This document shows positions 24,571 through 42,463 of a stretch of DNA of 64,000 nucleotides, in pieces (the stretch's first letter is position 1; each line of letters starts with the position of its first letter). The position numbers were made by a program, and so were the translations under genes. The notes below the pieces were generated by a model that saw nothing but the letters and a program-made list of their open reading frames with translations, was not told the DNA's origin and did not search any database. Origin of the DNA: Algorimicrobium algoritergicola (GTDB lineage: Bacteria; Bacteroidota; Bacteroidia; Flavobacteriales; Flavobacteriaceae); the NCBI RefSeq assembly GCF_008086165.1, contig NZ_VSKL01000001.1, positions 310,001 through 374,000 of the forward strand. The letters are read 5' to 3'.

Positions 24571-27414
24571 TTACTTAATTTCAAAATCAACAACTTCTCC
24601 TAATAACTGAACGCTATAAATACCTTTTGGTAAATAATATGTATCGTTTTGCGTTTTCGGAATATTTAAATCCGATTGTTGTTTCATTAGTGCTTTTCTG
24701 CCTTTTTCGGAAATCGACAAATCATAAGAAACATAATTGAAGCCTGCATCCAAATCAACAGGAATACGTTTCAAAACATCGTTATTTGCTGAACGGATTT
24801 CAATAGCGTGTTTTCCGGCATCCTTCACATAAACTTTAATACTAGTTTCTGGCACATAAGGCTCTAAATACTGACTCCAAGAACTTCCCCATCGTGAGGA
24901 ATAACGCATAGATTCCATAGGAAATAGTGTTGCGTTTTTAGCTAATAACGTCGCATTCACATTTTGAAGCGGTTCAATATTCGCGGTATATAAACTCCGT
25001 CCATGAGTTCCTAAAATTAAATCGTTAGCTTCTGGGTGAATCACTAAATCGTGTACAGCAACCGCTGACAAACCATTTGAAAAGGCTTCCCAAGAATCAC
25101 CTTGATTAAAGGATACATAAGCGCCATTATCAGTCCCAACATATAAAATGTTTTCGGCTTTTGGATCTTCTTTAATCACATTTACAGGAGACATGGGCAT
25201 ATTTGACGCGATGGATTTCCATGTTTTTCCATAGTCATTTGACATATATAAATAGGTGCTAAAATCATCCCAACGATAGCCATTGAGTGCTACATATACG
25301 CGTTCCTTTTTATGTTGAGATGCAATTACGCGTGTTACCCATAAATCTTTTGGAAAACTATTAGAAATCAATTCCCAAGTACCACCAGCATTTTTAGTTA
25401 CTTGTACCAATCCATCATCACTTCCTGTATACAGTAATCCAAAATTAAATGGCGATTCACTAATACTTGATAAGGTTCCATACGCTACATTTCCTTTTTT
25501 ACCGCCATTCGTTAAATCGGGACTGATGGCTTGCCAAGTTTCACCTTGATTCATAGAACGCATGAGTTTATTACCTCCTAAATACAAAATATCTTGATTA
25601 TGTGGTGATAATAAAATAGGCGTTTGCCAGTTAAAACGATACGGGTTTTCGCCTAATTCATGCTTTGGCTGAATATAGGTTTGATCTTTGGTTTTTCGGT
25701 TTATTCTGTAATAATTACCAAATTGATACCCTGTAAAAACGATATTAGAATTTCTACTATCTATTTGAATTTGCATACCGTCTCCACCCATAAGTTCTTC
25801 CCATGGATATTGTCCATTTTGATGCCAACGTTTGCTTTCTCTAGCATTATGAGGACCAACCCAAACCCCATTATCCTGCAAACCACCATAAATATTGTAT
25901 GGTTTTTCGTTATCGACATTAATGGCATAAAATTGTCCAACAGCATTCACATTTAGTTTTTCCCAGTTTTCGCCATCGTCATAACTAATATTTAATCCTC
26001 CATCATTCCCATCAATTAAATGGCCTGATTTTTTAGGATTAATCCATAACGCTTGATGATCGGCATGGACATTTTCGCGACTGATAGATGTGAATGTTTT
26101 CCCACCATCTTTCGATTTTAAAATGGGAACCCCTAATACATAAATCCCATTTGCATCCTGGGGATCCACACGAATTTCACCAAAATAATAACCATAACTA
26201 AAGTATAAACCTTCTAAATAATCGTCATGAGTTTTTTTCCATGTTTTCCCAGCATCTGTACTTTTGTAAACTTCAGCGCCAATTACTGGTGTATCAAATA
26301 ACATGGCATTGGCATCCTCTAAATAATGCGCTAAATCTATGGGTTTTACTGTTCCAGTCCGCACGAGTTGCTTCACATTATCTGCACGATATTTTTCTTG
26401 AAAACCATTCGTTTTTAAATAATTATTCAGTTTTTTATCATCTATATCCAACAGCTGATCTACTGTCATGGTTTTAAAGTCATCCTTTGTTAAACCACGT
26501 ATTTCGCTTTTTTCTTTTGAATCCGATCTATGAAATTGACTATCATGCAAGGCGTAAATTGTGTTTTCATCATAAACAGCTAACCCTATTCTACCAACGC
26601 CAATTCCCGTGGGGAAACCACTGGCTTCCGTTGATATTTTTTGCCATGTATTTCCAGCATCTTCACTTTTATAAATTGCTGAATTAGCACCATTTCCTGA
26701 AAAATTCCAAGCTTTTCGGTCTCGTGTCCAGGAGGAAGCAAACATCGTATTGAAATTATCTGGCACCTGTTGCACATCAATTATACCACTAGAATCATCA
26801 ACAAATAAGGTCTGTTTCCATGTTTTACCACCATCCACAGTTTTATAGATTCCGCGTTCGTTATTAGACGAATACAAGTGACCAGTAGCGCCAACAATAA
26901 CAGTATCTGGATTATCAGGATTTATTAAAATTCGACCAATATGATGCGAATCTGACAATCCAACATGCTCCCATGTTTTGCCATTATCAATAGATTTTAA
27001 AACACCAATTCCTGCATAACTAGAACGCGACGAATTATTTTCACCTGTACCAACCCAAATGGTTCTGGTTGACCAATGTACGGCAATATCACCCACATTT
27101 TGTGTATGGGCCGAATCTAAAATCGGCACAAAAGAGGCTCCGTTATTTACAGTATGCCAAACACCGCCAGAAGCATACGCCACATAAAACTCGATGGGAT
27201 TTTCTGGATTCACATCCAAATCCGTTACACGACCACTCATAACTGTTGGTCCAATGTTAGTAAATGGGATATTTTTAACGAGCGATTGTTGTATTAAAAC
27301 GTGTTTCTGATCTAATGATTTTTCTACTAAAGTAGACGACGTTGCAGGCTGCTGGCTAAAAGCAGTTGCACCCATTAGAACAAAACCAAGATTGATTAGC
27401 TGAAGGCATTTCAT
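24571..27414 (-). CDS. Secreted BNR/VPS10 (sortilin-like) beta-propeller protein
   Basis: A 947-residue exported protein (signal MKCLQLINLGFVLMGATAFSQQ). Numerous Asp-box/BNR repeats S-x-D-x-G-x-T-W are spread through the chain, e.g. SIDNGKTWEHV, TVDGGKTWKQT, SEDAGNTWQKI, STDAGKTWKKT, SKDGGKTFTSI, SYDDGENWEKL, NQGETWQAI, NDYGKTWKSI and NQGDSWEAF. This indicates one or two ten-bladed propellers as in sortilin/VPS10 or xyloglucanase-type proteins. The last ~140 residues form a separate domain (ESMRYSSRWGSSW ... YYLPKGIYSVQLLGEV). No T9SS sorting tail is obvious. Flavobacterial members are annotated as glycosyl hydrolases or WD40/BNR proteins; enzymatic activity is not supported by visible catalytic residues. 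Confidence 0.88.
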   Translation of the reverse strand: MKCLQLINLGFVLMGATAFSQQPATSSTLVEKSLDQKHVLIQQSLVKNIPFTNIGPTVMSGRVTDLDVNPENPIEFYVAYASGGVWHTVNNGASFVPILDSAHTQNVGDIAVHWSTRTIWVGTGENNSSRSSYAGIGVLKSIDNGKTWEHVGLSDSHHIGRILINPDNPDTVIVGATGHLYSSNNERGIYKTVDGGKTWKQTLFVDDSSGIIDVQQVPDNFNTMFASSWTRDRKAWNFSGNGANSAIYKSEDAGNTWQKISTEASGFPTGIGVGRIGLAVYDENTIYALHDSQFHRSDSKEKSEIRGLTKDDFKTMTVDQLLDIDDKKLNNYLKTNGFQEKYRADNVKQLVRTGTVKPIDLAHYLEDANAMLFDTPVIGAEVYKSTDAGKTWKKTHDDYLEGLYFSYGYYFGEIRVDPQDANGIYVLGVPILKSKDGGKTFTSISRENVHADHQALWINPKKSGHLIDGNDGGLNISYDDGENWEKLNVNAVGQFYAINVDNEKPYNIYGGLQDNGVWVGPHNARESKRWHQNGQYPWEELMGGDGMQIQIDSRNSNIVFTGYQFGNYYRINRKTKDQTYIQPKHELGENPYRFNWQTPILLSPHNQDILYLGGNKLMRSMNQGETWQAISPDLTNGGKKGNVAYGTLSSISESPFNFGLLYTGSDDGLVQVTKNAGGTWELISNSFPKDLWVTRVIASQHKKERVYVALNGYRWDDFSTYLYMSNDYGKTWKSIASNMPMSPVNVIKEDPKAENILYVGTDNGAYVSFNQGDSWEAFSNGLSAVAVHDLVIHPEANDLILGTHGRSLYTANIEPLQNVNATLLAKNATLFPMESMRYSSRWGSSWSQYLEPYVPETSIKVYVKDAGKHAIEIRSANNDVLKRIPVDLDAGFNYVSYDLSISEKGRKALMKQQSDLNIPKTQNDTYYLPKGIYSVQLLGEVVDFEIK

Positions 27415-35012: not shown

Positions 35013-35318
35013 AGAAGCTTGGAGTTATTTGTAGGCATGATAATCTAAAAAATTAAGATGACCGTTAATTACAAGATTCATTTTAACATAAATAAAAGAC
35101 CAATGACAAGTATTTTTCTAAATAATCCATTAATTTTGTTCCGATTAGCTAAATAAATTATGTTAAATACCAAGTTAATTCAATTTAAACTACGACTTAT
35201 ATATTATATTTTTATTTAAAGACTCGGTCTTAATCGAGGCAATAAAATAGCATATAAATCGTTTATTACTAAAAAACTATGCGTTGTTTAAAACCCTTAA
35301 ACCGCAACAAAAAAGCCT
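35013..35318. other. Gene-free, AT-rich stretch between thiL and the MbnP/MbnH-type operon
   Basis: 306 bases between divergent genes. No ORF with coding character, no hairpin with T-run and no clear TAnnTTTG element on the plus strand. It must hold the promoter of the four-gene lipoprotein operon starting at 35319, perhaps in the AT-rich block 35190-35225. Confidence 0.4.
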
Positions 35319-36806
35319 ATGAAACACCCTTTTAAATCCCCCTTAACTATCAAGCTTTTATTTATTTGTGTTGTTGTTTTCTCAACACTACAAGCTTGCG
35401 ATGATGAACTTGTAGATCCAATTGTTATTGTGGATACCGATAATGATGGTATTCCCGACAGTGAAGATAACTGTCCTGAACTATCAAATCCAAATCAAGA
35501 AGATGCCAATAATAATGGAATTGGTGATGCCTGTGAATCAATTACAATCATAGACACAGATAATGATGGTATTCCGGACAGTGAAGATAACTGTCCAACA
35601 ATAGCCAATCCAAATCAGGAGGATGATGATAATGATGGTATTGGAAATGCTTGTCAAGACACGCCTGCCACTACGCCATTATTCCCTTGTGAAAATGGTA
35701 TGGCTGGACCTTACCCATGTAATGGATATGATTTAATGAGCCATATTCCCATTAATATTATAGGTGAACCAAATGCCGAAGGTAACGACTCTTGGGGCTG
35801 GACAGATAGCACAACAGGCAATGAATATGCCCTTGTTGGCACCACACAAGGAACAGCATTTATAGATGTTACTGACCCATTAAACCCAATATTTTTAGGT
35901 CGCTTAGCATCCGTTAATCCGGGTGACAGAGGCAATATTTGGCGCGATGTAAAAGTGTATAATGACTATGCTTTTATTGTTAGTGAAGCTAGTGGTTATG
36001 GTATGCAAGTATTTGATTTAGGTCGATTACGTAATGTGGCAAATCCGCCAGAGACGTTTACAGCTGACACACATTACACAGGTTTTGGAAGTGCTCATAA
36101 TATTGTTATTAATGAAGATTCTGGTTATGCCTACATTGTAGGAACTAGCCGAAGTGGAACGTATGCTGGAGGCCCTTTATTTATTAATATTCAGAACCCG
36201 TTAAGCCCTGTGGAAGAAGGTGGCTTTTTTGGATATTCTCATGATGCACAAGTTCTAAACTACAATGGTCCTGATTCTGATTATAACGGTCAAGAAATTT
36301 TAATTGGAAGTAATGAAACCGAAGTTGTAATAGTTAATGTAACTGATAAAGCAAATCCGCAAATTATTTCTACCATTGACTATACCAATATTGGATATAC
36401 ACATCAAGGTTGGTTTACGGATGATTTGCAATATTTCATTCTGGGAGATGAAACTGACGAACAAAGTTTTGGTGGTAATACACGAACCATTGTCTTCGAT
36501 TTTACCGATTTAGACAATCCCCTTTTTCACATGGATTACTATGGACCAACAGCTGCAATTGACCATAATGGCTATGTAAAGGGCGATACATTTTATATTG
36601 CTAATTATACAGCAGGCGTTCGATTTGTAGATATTTCCGGCATTGGTAGTAGCAATATGACTGAAGTTGGGTTCTTTGATTCTTATCCAGCGAATAATAG
36701 CACCAGTTTCCATGGTGCGTGGAACGTATACCCTTATTTTGCTAGTGGAAATATTATTATTAGCGATATTGAAGGCGGCTTATTTATAGTAAGAAAGCAA
36801 AATTAA
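35319..36806 (+). CDS. Choice-of-anchor B/LVIVD-repeat lipoprotein with thrombospondin-3 repeats
   Basis: A 495-residue lipoprotein (lipobox LQAC, Cys27). Residues ~36-115 are two calcium-binding thrombospondin type 3 repeats with DTDNDGIPDSEDNCP repeated almost verbatim, also at DNA level. The rest (from ~130) is a beta-propeller of LVIVD repeats typical of choice-of-anchor B proteins: YALVGTTQGTAFIDVTDP, AFIVSEASGYGMQVFDL, IVIVNVTDKANPQII and IANYTAGVRFVDIS. It is first gene of a four-gene operon, with 7 bp to the next start. Its role next to an MbnP/MbnH-like pair is unknown. Surface or periplasmic location is inferred from the signal. Confidence 0.9.
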   Translation: MKHPFKSPLTIKLLFICVVVFSTLQACDDELVDPIVIVDTDNDGIPDSEDNCPELSNPNQEDANNNGIGDACESITIIDTDNDGIPDSEDNCPTIANPNQEDDDNDGIGNACQDTPATTPLFPCENGMAGPYPCNGYDLMSHIPINIIGEPNAEGNDSWGWTDSTTGNEYALVGTTQGTAFIDVTDPLNPIFLGRLASVNPGDRGNIWRDVKVYNDYAFIVSEASGYGMQVFDLGRLRNVANPPETFTADTHYTGFGSAHNIVINEDSGYAYIVGTSRSGTYAGGPLFINIQNPLSPVEEGGFFGYSHDAQVLNYNGPDSDYNGQEILIGSNETEVVIVNVTDKANPQIISTIDYTNIGYTHQGWFTDDLQYFILGDETDEQSFGGNTRTIVFDFTDLDNPLFHMDYYGPTAAIDHNGYVKGDTFYIANYTAGVRFVDISGIGSSNMTEVGFFDSYPANNSTSFHGAWNVYPYFASGNIIISDIEGGLFIVRKQN

Positions 36807-36813
36807 ATTCACC

Positions 36814-38139
36814 TTGAAACTAAAAATATTAAGTTTTTTAACAACACTATTCATACTGGGTTGTTCATCAGATAATGATGCAACTCCAGAAGGTGCTGTT
36901 GACTCCACAACAACCGTAACAACATTAGGTGGATCTAAAAATGAAAGTGGTCAATCCATTATCAAAACAATGGATGGCGGTTATGCTATTTTAGGTTTTA
37001 CTCAAAGTTCGGATGGCGATGTTGCCGATAAAACGAATGAAAGTTATGATTATTGGGTGCTAAAATTTAATGCGAATCATGACATGCAATGGTCCAAAAC
37101 TTATGGCGGATCGGGTGATGATCGCGGTGAAGAAATAGTTCAGACATCAGATGGCGGTTTTGCTATTCTAGGCTACAGTGATAGTAATGATGGCGATGTA
37201 ACCAGCAATGCAGGGGCACAAGATTACTGGTTGGCAAAACTAGATTCTAACGGAAATTTATTGTGGCAAAAATCCTATGGTTATTTAGGAGCTGATCGTG
37301 GTAAATCTATATTAGTAACTCATGATGGTGGCTTTTTTATTACCGGTATTTTGGATGTTACAGCATCAGGTGGCGCTGGAAATACTAAAAACGCAAGTTT
37401 TAAACACGCAGGTGGTGATTATTGGGCTTTAAAATTGAACAGTGAAGGCACCATTGAATGGAGCAAATACTACGGCGGAAGCTTTACCGATTCTCCTTTT
37501 GATGCCATTCAAACGGATGAAGGTGATTACATAATTGTTGGATCCTCTGATAGTGATGATGTCGACATTGCCAATAATATTGGTGATTATGATTTTTGGG
37601 TCATAAAAATATCCAATTCAGGAACCATTATCTGGGAAGAAAATTTTGGAGGCACACAAATAGATGAAGCGCGCAGTATAGTTGATTCTGGCGATGGTAA
37701 TTATCTCATTATTGGTGATACACGTAGTAATGATGTTCAAATTTCAAATAATTTGGGCGCAGCGGATTTATGGCTCATAAAAATATCACCCTCAGGAAAT
37801 CTTATTTGGGAAAAAACGCTTGGCGGAAGTGATTTTGATGCTGGACTATCCATTAAAAAAGGAACTAGTTCTGGTTTTATAATATCAGGAAGTTCTAGAA
37901 GTGCCGACGGCAATTTGTTCAGCAATAAAGGTCAAAATGATGCTTGGTTATTAAAAATTGATGCTAATGGTACAATTATCAAGCAAGAATCCGTTGGTGG
38001 TTCAGCTATTGATTTTTGTTTAAGTGCAATTGAATTAGAAGATAACACGATAATTGGCGTTGGGAAATCCGGTAGTTCAGATGGTGATATATTAGAAAAT
38101 AAAGGGTTTACAGACTTACTAATAATTAGAACAAAATGA
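36814..38139 (+). CDS. Seven-repeat beta-propeller-like lipoprotein
   Basis: A 441-residue lipoprotein beginning at TTG 36814 (KLKILSFLTTLFILGCSSD, lipobox LGCS); no ATG fits, as the previous stop is 7 bases before. The mature protein is seven copies of a ~55-residue repeat with core GGS-x(4)-(G/A)-x-x-I-x-x-x-x-DGG(Y/F)-x-I-x-G-x-(S/T)-x-S-x-DGD(V/I). Examples are YGGSGDDRGEEIVQTSDGG, FGGTQIDEARSIVDSGDGN and LGGSDFDAGLSIKKGTSSG, each followed by a strand ending in WL(V/I)K(L/I). This suggests a seven-bladed propeller. No catalytic residues. The stop overlaps the MbnP-like ATG by 4 bases (ATGA), so translation is probably coupled. Confidence 0.85.
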   Translation: MKLKILSFLTTLFILGCSSDNDATPEGAVDSTTTVTTLGGSKNESGQSIIKTMDGGYAILGFTQSSDGDVADKTNESYDYWVLKFNANHDMQWSKTYGGSGDDRGEEIVQTSDGGFAILGYSDSNDGDVTSNAGAQDYWLAKLDSNGNLLWQKSYGYLGADRGKSILVTHDGGFFITGILDVTASGGAGNTKNASFKHAGGDYWALKLNSEGTIEWSKYYGGSFTDSPFDAIQTDEGDYIIVGSSDSDDVDIANNIGDYDFWVIKISNSGTIIWEENFGGTQIDEARSIVDSGDGNYLIIGDTRSNDVQISNNLGAADLWLIKISPSGNLIWEKTLGGSDFDAGLSIKKGTSSGFIISGSSRSADGNLFSNKGQNDAWLLKIDANGTIIKQESVGGSAIDFCLSAIELEDNTIIGVGKSGSSDGDILENKGFTDLLIIRTK

Positions 38140-38906
38140 AAAAAATAGTATCAATAATAATGTTAGCTTTCGTTATTTTTTCCTGTGGTGAAGATAATGA
38201 TGACCTCCTAGCTCCTGTGCAAACCAAAGCAGCTATTACATTTAATTTCACCCATAATTGGGATACCACTACTATAAATAGCAGTAATCTTCAAACAGAA
38301 ACCGTTACCAACGCTCATGGTGAAATTATGAACATGACCAGGTTACGTTATTTGGTATCACGATTCGAATTAACAAATCAAAACGGAGAAATATATAGCT
38401 TTAATGGGTATAAGTTTACTGATTTATCAAATGAAACAACTTATAATTTCTCACCTGATAATAACATAATCCCAATTGGAACTTACACCCTAAAATTTAT
38501 TTGGGGCTTTAATGAAACAGATAATATAGATGGTGCCTATCCCGATTTAAACAGTGCATCTTGGAATTGGCCAGAAATGCTAGGTGGAGGTTACCACTTT
38601 ATGCAGTTTGACGGTATGTACAATGTAAATACAGCGCCAATGCCATATAATTTTCACAATGGTACAGCACGTGTAAGCGCAGATGTTTTTGAGCAAAATT
38701 TTGCCGAAATAATACTGCCAACAGAAATTACCATAACTAACAACGCTACCATTGAGGTAAAAATGAATATTGCTGAATTTTTCGAAAACCCTAACACCTG
38801 GGATTTAAATGCTCTTGACACCTCATTAATGCCAAATTATGACGCTCAAAAAATGATGCAAGCCAATGTTTCGACCGTGTTTTCTATTGGAAACATCACG
38901 CATTAA
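38136..38906 (+). CDS. MbnP-like copper-binding lipoprotein
   Basis: A 256-residue lipoprotein (MKKIVSIIMLAFVIFSCGE, lipobox IFSC) with the MbnP domain: AAITFNFTHNWD near the start of the mature part, RLRYLVSRFELTNQNG, and the segment SASWNWPEMLGGGYHFMQFDG (in two pieces: Trp143, Trp145, His154), then MPYNFHNGTA (His174). MbnP proteins bind copper. In Methylosinus trichosporium the diheme enzyme MbnH oxidises a Trp of MbnP to kynurenine to complete the copper site. Trp143 or Trp145 is a candidate here, with His40, His154 and His174 as possible ligands; this is inference. The adjacent downstream gene encodes the diheme partner. ATG overlaps the previous stop. Confidence 0.88.
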   Translation: MKKIVSIIMLAFVIFSCGEDNDDLLAPVQTKAAITFNFTHNWDTTTINSSNLQTETVTNAHGEIMNMTRLRYLVSRFELTNQNGEIYSFNGYKFTDLSNETTYNFSPDNNIIPIGTYTLKFIWGFNETDNIDGAYPDLNSASWNWPEMLGGGYHFMQFDGMYNVNTAPMPYNFHNGTARVSADVFEQNFAEIILPTEITITNNATIEVKMNIAEFFENPNTWDLNALDTSLMPNYDAQKMMQANVSTVFSIGNITH

Positions 38907-38916
38907 AATATTTTAA

Positions 38917-39987
38917 ATGAAGACAGCATTAACATATACACTTTTAATTTTATGTATTTTTATTACGGCTTGTAGTAAAGATGATTCAGAAGAATATGTT
39001 AATAAGCCAACGGCTCAACCTTTGGATATTCCGCCATTATTTGCGCAATTTATTATTAACCCTGTAATTCCCATTGATAATCCGCAAACCTTAGAAGGTA
39101 TTGCCCTTGGTAAAAAATTATTTTTTGATCCCTTACTGTCTGCTAATAATACTCAAGCATGTGCAACGTGCCACAGTCCACAAAATGCCTTTTCAGATAA
39201 TTCTCAATTTAGTATAGGTATTGACGGCATTCTTGGTAACAGAAATTCCATGCCACTATTTAATTTGGCTTGGAATTATGATGAAAAATTCTTTTGGGAT
39301 GGTCGCGTATTCAGTTTGGAGCATCAAGCGTTAGTCCCTGTGGAGGATCCTGTAGAAATGCATAATACATGGGAAACTGTAATTTCACGATTACAACAAC
39401 ATCCAGAATATCCAAATCTATTTAATAGTGCATTTGGTGATGGTATGATTACCAAAGAAAAAGCCACCAAGGCACTAGCGCAATTTGAACGTACGCTTAT
39501 TTCGGCCAATTCAAAATTTGACAATTATTTGTTAGGCGAAGCTACGTTAACACCGCAAGAAACCAATGGTTTAAATGTGTTTATGGATGAAACCCGAGGC
39601 GATTGCTTTCACTGCCATGGCAACCCCAACAATCCGCTATGGACCGATAATATGTTTCATAATAACGGTTTGGATGCAACCATAACCGATTTGGGACTTG
39701 GAGCCGTAACAGGAGACCCCGCTGATAACGGCAAATTCAAATCGCCATCCCTTCGTAATTTAGCATACACAGCCCCATTTATGCACGATGGTCGTTTTGC
39801 AACTTTAGACGATGTTATCAATCATTATAGTGAAGGCTTGCAAAATTCACCAACCATTGATCCGCTGATGAAAAAAGTAGCACAAGGTGGTGTGCAGCTT
39901 TCTACTCAAGACAAAGCGGATTTAAAAATATTTTTACTGACTCTATCAGATGCATCCTTTATTAATAATCCAGAGTTTCAAAATTAA
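38917..39987 (+). CDS. Diheme cytochrome c peroxidase/MauG/MbnH-like lipoprotein
   Basis: A 356-residue lipoprotein (lipobox TACS, Cys19). Two c-type haem sites are present: CATCH (Cys82, Cys85, His86) and CFHCH (Cys230, Cys233, His234), with the bCcP/MauG blocks LGKKLFFDPLLS, FSDNSQFSIG, NLAWNYDEKFFWDGR and the C-terminal SPSLRNLAYTAPFMHDGRF. Pairing with MbnP in one operon (10 bp apart) makes MbnH, a Trp-oxidising MauG relative, more likely than a plain hydrogen peroxide scavenger. The sequence alone does not show which. It is the last gene of the operon; the suf cluster follows after 182 bp. Confidence 0.9.
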   Translation: MKTALTYTLLILCIFITACSKDDSEEYVNKPTAQPLDIPPLFAQFIINPVIPIDNPQTLEGIALGKKLFFDPLLSANNTQACATCHSPQNAFSDNSQFSIGIDGILGNRNSMPLFNLAWNYDEKFFWDGRVFSLEHQALVPVEDPVEMHNTWETVISRLQQHPEYPNLFNSAFGDGMITKEKATKALAQFERTLISANSKFDNYLLGEATLTPQETNGLNVFMDETRGDCFHCHGNPNNPLWTDNMFHNNGLDATITDLGLGAVTGDPADNGKFKSPSLRNLAYTAPFMHDGRFATLDDVINHYSEGLQNSPTIDPLMKKVAQGGVQLSTQDKADLKIFLLTLSDASFINNPEFQN

Positions 39988-42031: not shown

Positions 42032-42463
42032 ATGAAAAAACTAGCCACACTTTTAATAGTATCTATTGTTTTTATTAGTTGTAAAAATGATAGTAAAACT
42101 GAAGAAACCATAATAGAAACAGAAGCTATTGATATGGATAGCCCAAATCGCACGAAAAAACAAAGCGATGGACTAACCTTATTAAAAGGCGAATTTGTTT
42201 ACTATTCAGATGCAGCTGTATTACAAACGCATCGCGAAGTTTATGGCGTTGTTATGGACGATAAAATGATGGAACTTAATAAGATGGCAGAAGCTTATAA
42301 AAAAGAACCAACAGATTACACCACAGTTTCCATCCGTGGAAAAGTAGTGCCAAAACCAGAAAACGAAGAAGGCTGGCCTTTTCGTGTAGAAATAAAAGAA
42401 ATTTTAAGTGTTTCAGCTTCAAACCCTGAAACCAATAATGTAGTAAAATTGGAATCCAAATAA
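42032..42463 (+). CDS. NlpE-C-OB-like lipoprotein inserted between sufB and sufC
   Basis: A 143-residue lipoprotein (MKKLATLLIVSIVFISCKND, lipobox FISC). The mature part resembles the C-terminal OB-fold domain of NlpE: LKGEFVYYSDAAVLQTH, a helix MMELNKMAEAYKKEP, and TTVSIRGKVVPKPENEEGW followed by VEIKEILSVS. NlpE is an outer-membrane lipoprotein that senses surface and copper stress in E. coli; homology is only suggested by pattern here. It lies 32 bp after sufB and just 2 bp before sufC, so it is translated from the suf transcript. Why an envelope lipoprotein sits in a cytoplasmic Fe-S operon is unclear. Confidence 0.75.
   Translation: MKKLATLLIVSIVFISCKNDSKTEETIIETEAIDMDSPNRTKKQSDGLTLLKGEFVYYSDAAVLQTHREVYGVVMDDKMMELNKMAEAYKKEPTDYTTVSIRGKVVPKPENEEGWPFRVEIKEILSVSASNPETNNVVKLESK

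Follow-up and report, generated by a model that had tools for sequence, protein, structure and literature searches.

What joint task might four consecutive lipoprotein genes serve in the flavobacterium Algorimicrobium algoritergicola? The genes lie on the plus strand at positions 35319-39987 of the window, by which we mean the whole stretch of 64,000 nucleotides that was analyzed (contig NZ_VSKL01000001.1, positions 310,001 to 374,000 of the forward strand). A preliminary description of this DNA had proposed two propeller lipoproteins, here P1 and P2, followed by an MbnP-like protein and an MbnH-like dihaem partner (together MbnPH), and had ascribed a kynurenine-copper site to the pair. The open reading frames (ORFs) agree with the four genes and the gaps of 7, -4, and 10 bases that it gave, and a lipobox Cys was recognized by eye in every translation (C27, C17, C17, and C19). 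We found that P1-P2 is the constant part of this locus and MbnPH the optional part. To the following account of its function we give about an even chance. The products would be lipoproteins of the outer membrane, probably exposed at the cell surface. The dihaem enzyme MbnH, which resembles MauG, would oxidize a Trp of MbnP and thereby complete a remodelled Cu(I) site on it, and MbnP and the propellers would make up a surface metal-handling complex. Judged from sequence, a copper function of the operon is likely.

The MbnP/MbnH pair and its chromosomal slot

The product of the third gene matches the MbnP family PF20243 (85.4 bits, gathering cut-off 27, E 6.3e-24), a domain match that had been set beforehand as the test of its MbnP-like nature. 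In agreement with this match, a Foldseek search with its predicted model (m19a12d7565b0, mean predicted local distance difference test score, pLDDT, 90.0) placed on top six chains of 7l6g, the crystal MbnP of Methylosinus trichosporium OB3b (E 9e-7 to 3e-6, TM about 0.5). These were the sole matches below E 0.001, and the next one had E 0.12. A profile of classical MbnPs retrieves 7l6g (E 0.0009); a profile of class A MbnPs, the class of the window protein, did not retrieve it. When plasmids were searched for bacterial MbnPs, two matches were obtained, both from Deinococcus.

The fourth gene was said to encode a MauG-like dihaem protein, and this is borne out by its haem motifs CATCH and CFHCH, by a match to PF03150 (CCP_MauG, 204.8 bits), and by a MauG-type Tyr. 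Its Y304 aligns without gaps with MauG residue 294, the Tyr that we take to be an axial ligand. The haem motifs, W127, E147, and Y304 are identical in all 153 distinct MbnHs of the operon. TIGR04039 ("MbnH family di-heme enzyme") is the best NCBIfam model, with 264.3 bits against a cut-off of 362.85. Nine other Bacteroidota partners score 206 to 270 bits, and since none of the ten attains the cut-off, it does not discriminate among them. The best solved relative is 6e1c, a "Di-heme enzyme" that is presumably Methylosinus MbnH (E 6.6e-52, 180 bits), and the best peroxidase among the solved matches has 142 bits. By these scores the protein lies nearer to MbnH than to peroxidases, as had been expected, yet several peroxidases outscore MauG.

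To place the pair in its surroundings, 100 stretches of 5.8-14 kb around MbnP matches of Flavobacteriaceae were compared. The order P1-P2-MbnP-MbnH is found in 84 of them, with median gaps of 9, 4, and 5 bp; 83 carry a class A MbnP and one (L130) a classical one, and the other 16 are without the set. All four genes are present in 76 of 80 named loci, and three of the four partial loci have their match at most 1.9 kb from a contig end. Since the order recurs in this way, it is not a chance neighbourhood. The place is constant as well. In the 83 class A loci, the stretch compared includes thiL 72 times and sufA 81 times, and in nearly every case the operon is flanked by thiL and the SUF genes. 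A search of the source genome found one MbnP and one MbnH-type dihaem protein, and the closest named relative is Bizionia echini, whose MbnP is 82% identical.

Across 299 genomes of the family, PF20243 was detected in 139 and TIGR04312, the model matched by P1, in 165. Both occur in 102 genomes, MbnP only in 37, P1 only in 63, and neither in 97 (Fisher odds 4.2, p 4e-9, kinship ignored). We also inspected 40 P1 loci without an MbnP in the slot, 36 from MbnP-free genomes and four from genomes with an MbnP elsewhere. P2 adjoins P1 in 37 of them, and both thiL and sufA are visible in all but three of those 37, a total of 34. Hence, the two propellers belong with MbnP/MbnH, as had been suggested, in the sense that they are constant across loci and are kept when MbnP is absent from the slot. 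In one locus (L285), P1 is the only one of the four genes between thiL and sufA, and a search of that genome, run without a positive control, found no P2 match. A second MbnP/MbnH lineage stands behind P1-P2 in five loci, including L130. Three of these show both flanks, one thiL only, and one neither, and their classical MbnPs are nearest each other in the tree. The presence of a second lineage in the same slot suggests that the pair fits the P1-P2 setting.

The M-x-W motif and the constant residues of MbnP

Manesis et al. reportedly found in 2021 that the first Trp of the WxW in Methylosinus MbnP becomes kynurenine, at a His/Met/solvent copper site. The motif reads M-A-W-N-W in 7l6g and W-N-W in the window MbnP, which is thus without an M-x-W that holds a kynurenine-forming Trp: the Met is replaced, and the Trp itself is present. 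M-x-W is found in all 30 classical MbnPs, in all five classical-type MbnPs of the P1-P2 slot (three of which duplicate members of the 30), in 19 of 20 MbnPs from other families of the phylum, and in 13 of 16 intermediate MbnPs, the exceptions being L115, L127, and one of L131. Outgroup MbnPs of the GGGYH type read M-x-W-P-(3)-GGGYH, and class A proteins W-x-W-P-(3)-GGGYH or W-x-V-P-(3)-GGGYH. The equal spacing to GGGYH puts class A residue 145 at the old Trp position and residue 143 at the old Met position.

The 165 MbnP rows include duplicates, where one genome occurs in two collections, and 155 distinct class A proteins were counted. Their motif is WxW in 80, WxV in 66, and FxV in 9. The preliminary description had named Trp143 or Trp145 as the modified residue. 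The conservation this calls for is mixed: residue 143 is Trp in 146 and Phe in 9 (never Met), residue 145 is Trp in 80 and Val in 75, and neither is invariant though MbnH is. On an MbnH tree of 87 of the 163 rows, the state of residue 143 changes six times, at least four of them forced by supported branches, and that of residue 145 ten times; these counts carry no direction of change. All nine FxV loci encode an MbnH with every haem and MauG residue tested. On these alignments, conservation of MbnH is independent of Trp143 and Trp145. In the window protein the putative modified residue would most likely be Trp145 or Trp143, but as far as the alignments tell that of class A as a whole cannot be 143/145 only.

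Other residues are far more constant. H174 and W222 are invariant in the 155 proteins, and H154 and M232 are present in 154. With the Met of M-x-W gone, H154, H174, and M232 would be the likeliest side-chain ligands of the remodelled site. The orphan L078:6685-7464, a class A MbnP between thiL and sufA that P1, P2, and MbnH do not adjoin, deviates at two of 26 near-invariant columns, which are H154 and M232. Among random draws of two columns from the 26, 3 of 325 would fall entirely within H154/H174/M232, a count devised post hoc. That the orphan has lost H154 and M232 suggests that both serve as ligands, in a site dependent on the partner. A P2 search of the same genome, run without a positive control, gave no match.

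The constancy of W222 raises the question of whether MbnH acts on Trp222 (or Trp42) rather than on 143/145, its target having moved when M-x-W was lost. All nine F-x-V proteins keep W222, whereas the aligned classical, intermediate, and outgroup MbnPs have no Trp at this position; W143 and W145, in contrast, undergo replacement beside an intact MbnH. However, W222 could be structural. It is retained in the orphan without a neighbouring MbnH, as a structural residue would be, and this weakens it as an MbnH target. We regard such a shift of the target as unlikely. The same F-x-V proteins, in which both Trps are lost beside an intact MbnH, could also mean that MbnH works chiefly as a peroxidase or in electron transfer and that MbnP, in half of the lineages, is a lipoprotein with no copper site derived from Trp. 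Bacterial cytochrome c peroxidases are the next solved relatives of MbnH, and the TIGR04039 cut-off is unreached. On the other side stand the MauG-type Tyr in every operon MbnH, best matches that are MbnH and MauG models, the lasting adjacency of MbnP and MbnH, and the loss of H154 and M232 in the orphan only. Such a role for MbnH is distinctly unlikely. A remodelled surface copper site on class A MbnP, with the target of MbnH uncertain, is the best reading of these patterns.

The propellers P1 and P2

P1 had been described as a TSP3/LVIVD propeller. Pfam finds two TSP_3 stretches, and the predicted model is a propeller (mean pLDDT 90.5). No LVIVD family was reported, and TIGR04312 (choice_anch_B) matches instead (532.1 bits, cut-off 100, E 7.8e-160). 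Among the 84 loci, 55 have one P1 copy, 19 two, eight three, and two four; extra long copies at L109:10422-12350 and L060:1705-3624 have a C-terminal sorting domain of type A of the type IX secretion system and appear to be secreted versions. His260, His308, His362, and His416 of P1 are invariant in 38 aligned sequences and are retained in pair-less genomes, and a fifth His, nearly invariant in relatives, is Tyr227 in the window. A metal site within the P1 propeller is plausible from this pattern.

Such a site would leave room for an MbnH that modifies or serves P1 or P2 rather than MbnP. The top Foldseek match of P1 is the phosphotriesterase of Sphingobium TCM1 (5hrm, E 6e-11), which we take to have a binuclear metal site. 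Moreover, the available text of PMC5739008 describes mtoX-SCO1-mauG clusters, in which mauG lies beside the gene of the copper-dependent SBP56 methanethiol oxidase. The fold match, however, is generic, with 14% identity, a sequence profile E of 0.18, and 788 propeller-like matches at E <=0.001; SBP56 is absent among the best 50 of the 788, and P1 was rejected as an SBP56 relative, as it has no such family match in Pfam or NCBIfam. In neither P1 nor P2 did we find a Trp, Cys, His, or Met column that is conserved only alongside MbnPH. The His and Trp of P1 are kept without MbnH, and the extra His of P2 occur solely in the pair-less form. A propeller as the substrate or client of MbnH is very unlikely.

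P2 has no Pfam family at E 0.001 and weakly resembles the SBBP-propeller lipoprotein model NF047494 (46.6 bits, cut-off of 400 unmet); its description as a seven-repeat protein rests on judgement by eye. It occurs in two forms. Alongside MbnPH (n=88; 83 class A, 5 classical), R304 is present in 88/88 and H160/H162 in 0/88. Without the pair (n=37), H136, H160, and H162 are His in 37/37 and R304 is found in 0/37. H198 is His in 125/125, and we infer that H136, H160, H162, and H198 may form a metal site. On a species tree of sufB and thiL (68 of 126 rows, taking every second class A row and rows with more than 500 filled columns), presence of the pair changes four times, and the P2 form follows in all four contrasts. 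The simplest reading is that the operon exists in two types, exchanged for one another as whole blocks. A convergent gain of the His was rejected as the explanation, since a P2 tree (85 of 126 rows, diagnostic columns removed) fits block replacement equally well. All trees were quick searches. The lineage might even be a separate kynurenine-copper branch in which M-x-W was dismantled in favour of a new site, with H154, H174, and M232 as Cu(I) ligands and the class-specific invariant Trp222 as the residue oxidized by MbnH, and in which MbnP took over the metal role that P2 has through H136, H160, H162, and H198 in pair-less flavobacteria, a combination that we find rather improbable.

Several observations weigh against the account that we prefer, in which MbnH completes a copper site on MbnP within a complex of all four proteins. 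Kynurenine at 143/145 is not a rule, as neither Trp is present in 9 of the 155 MbnPs and Trp145 is absent from 75, with MbnH intact. The window MbnP has 17.3 bits with TIGR04052, the model of WxW-type copper-binding MbnPs, below its cut-off of 140; three other Bacteroidota MbnPs score 27 to 52 bits. Two further dihaem proteins, with 42% and 34% identity, are encoded in the genome of the orphan. The four proteins need not act as one complex, as P1-P2 occurs without the pair in 37 loci. In addition, among 20 loci of classical MbnPs in the family, 16 have MbnP alone with MbnH, the other four standing behind P1-P2, and MbnP and MbnH are without P2 in 19 of 20 loci from other families, where matches to the P1 profile are at most weak (28-33 bits). 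The contrast between the P2 forms rests on four changes (sign test p 0.125, below significance), and the P2 tree without the diagnostic columns would allow the pair-less form to have arisen just once. Finally, no copper gene adjoining the operon was established within the window.

Operon features, neighbours, and known systems

The optimal surface-export signal, according to the available text of PMC5080379, is C-X-K-(D/E)2, and the mature start of the window MbnH, CSKDD, fits it. A lipobox script was run on 84 MbnP, 84 P2, 98 MbnH, and 84 P1 sequences. Among those in which a lipobox was found, positions +2 to +6 contain two or more acidic residues in 77 of 83 MbnP, 58 of 78 P2, 46 of 87 MbnH, and 21 of 40 P1 proteins. 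These signals make a good case for the predicted surface location of MbnP and P2 and a moderate one for that of MbnH and P1. The features of the operon are collected in Table 1.

Table 1. Coordinates of operon features in the window
Feature	Position	Strand	Basis
TAnnTTTG upstream of P1, sole such site found there	35131..35138	+	motif scan
P1 lipoprotein; two TSP3 stretches, then choice-of-anchor-B propeller (residues 123-493)	35319..36806	+	profiles, predicted fold
P2 lipoprotein with repeats, probably a beta-propeller, in the form found with MbnPH (R304, without H160-x-H162); TTG start	36814..38139	+	sequence, alignment
MbnP-family lipoprotein, class A	38136..38906	+	PF20243 and predicted fold
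W143 codon; Met position of M-x-W in other MbnPs	38562..38564	+	W 146, F 9 of 155 distinct
W145 codon; by register homologue of the Trp of M-x-W	38568..38570	+	W 80, V 75 of 155 distinct
H154 codon, candidate ligand	38595..38597	+	154/155; lost in orphan L078
H174 codon, candidate ligand	38655..38657	+	155/155; column also His in 30/30 classical MbnPs
W222 codon	38799..38801	+	155/155 in class A; not Trp in aligned classical/outgroup MbnPs
M232 codon, candidate ligand	38829..38831	+	154/155; lost in orphan L078
MbnH/MauG-type dihaem lipoprotein	38917..39987	+	profiles, haem motifs, MauG alignment, N-terminus
First haem motif CATCH (C82-H86)	39160..39174	+	sequence
Second haem motif CFHCH (C230-H234)	39604..39618	+	sequence
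MbnH Y304 codon, aligned with MauG residue 294	39826..39828	+	Tyr in 153/153 distinct

The site upstream of P1 has the sequence that we take to be the Bacteroidota -7 motif, and a scan of the stretches preceding P2, MbnP, and MbnH found no other. The gap between MbnH and sufA has a median of 139 bp, and TAnnTTTG sites precede sufA; the SUF operon is therefore taken to be a constant neighbour under a promoter of its own and was rejected as a functional part of the system. Between sufB and sufC, at 42032-42463 of the window, lies the gene of a small lipoprotein that matches the NlpE C-terminal OB domain (PF17185, 25.0 bits, cut-off 22); NlpE is also called CutF and is a copper-linked lipoprotein. 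A large Sortilin/BNR-repeat propeller protein lies at 24571-27414, a position unrelated to the operon. In three loci with a classical pair (L243, L246, and L250), a protein of 116-141 residues precedes MbnP, with a C-x-K-P-x-L-x-C-type motif in the two fully shown starts, and a protein with CDLCGC follows MbnH; the flanking pair of L250 has no Pfam or NCBIfam match. A small copper-type upstream gene was rejected as part of the system, as it was recognized by eye before classical MbnP, has no family match, and was not seen before P1.

The occurrence of an MbnP/MbnH pair outside methanobactin bacteria, which the preliminary description had put forward, is confirmed but is not new: in the available text of PMC3621798, such pairs were already described in 2013. 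Among the titles and abstract openings listed by searches of open-licence literature on MbnP/MbnH, LVIVD, and choice-of-anchor B, none describes the four-gene operon. New here are the setting with P1 and P2, the fixed slot, and the P2 form that tracks the pair. To our knowledge, protein-derived kynurenine copper sites are limited to few proteins, nearly all of them from methanotrophs. The operon would represent a conserved variant of the kynurenine-copper type in flavobacteria, a large family with marine and other members, and this variant is linked to a single chromosomal place and to two propeller families that lack an explanation. As W-x-W, W-x-V, and F-x-V all occur in nature while MbnH stays the same, it is directly testable which residue MbnH oxidizes and whether copper requires the Trp.

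Among known systems, the mtoX-SCO1-mauG cluster resembles the operon in that a copper protein gene is clustered with a MauG-like gene (PMC5739008, available text). Unlike that cluster, the operon has no SCO1, and P1 and P2 are without an SBP56 family match. In the CorA/CorB and MopE/SACCP systems of methanotrophs, the gene of a surface copper protein likewise neighbours that of a dihaem protein resembling MauG. According to the available text of PMC3912023, CorA and MopE are substrates of their dihaem partners and carry kynurenine at a Cu(I) site whose ligands are two His, kynurenine, and water; the likeness of this site to class A MbnP is one of description. MbnP and MbnH of Methylosinus trichosporium OB3b (7l6g; 6e1c) share with the operon the MbnP fold, an MbnH-type partner, adjacent genes, and the His at column 174. 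However, the Methylosinus pair has a methanobactin setting and M-x-W-x-W, whereas the flavobacterial pair has W-N-W and stands, without methanobactin, behind two propellers.

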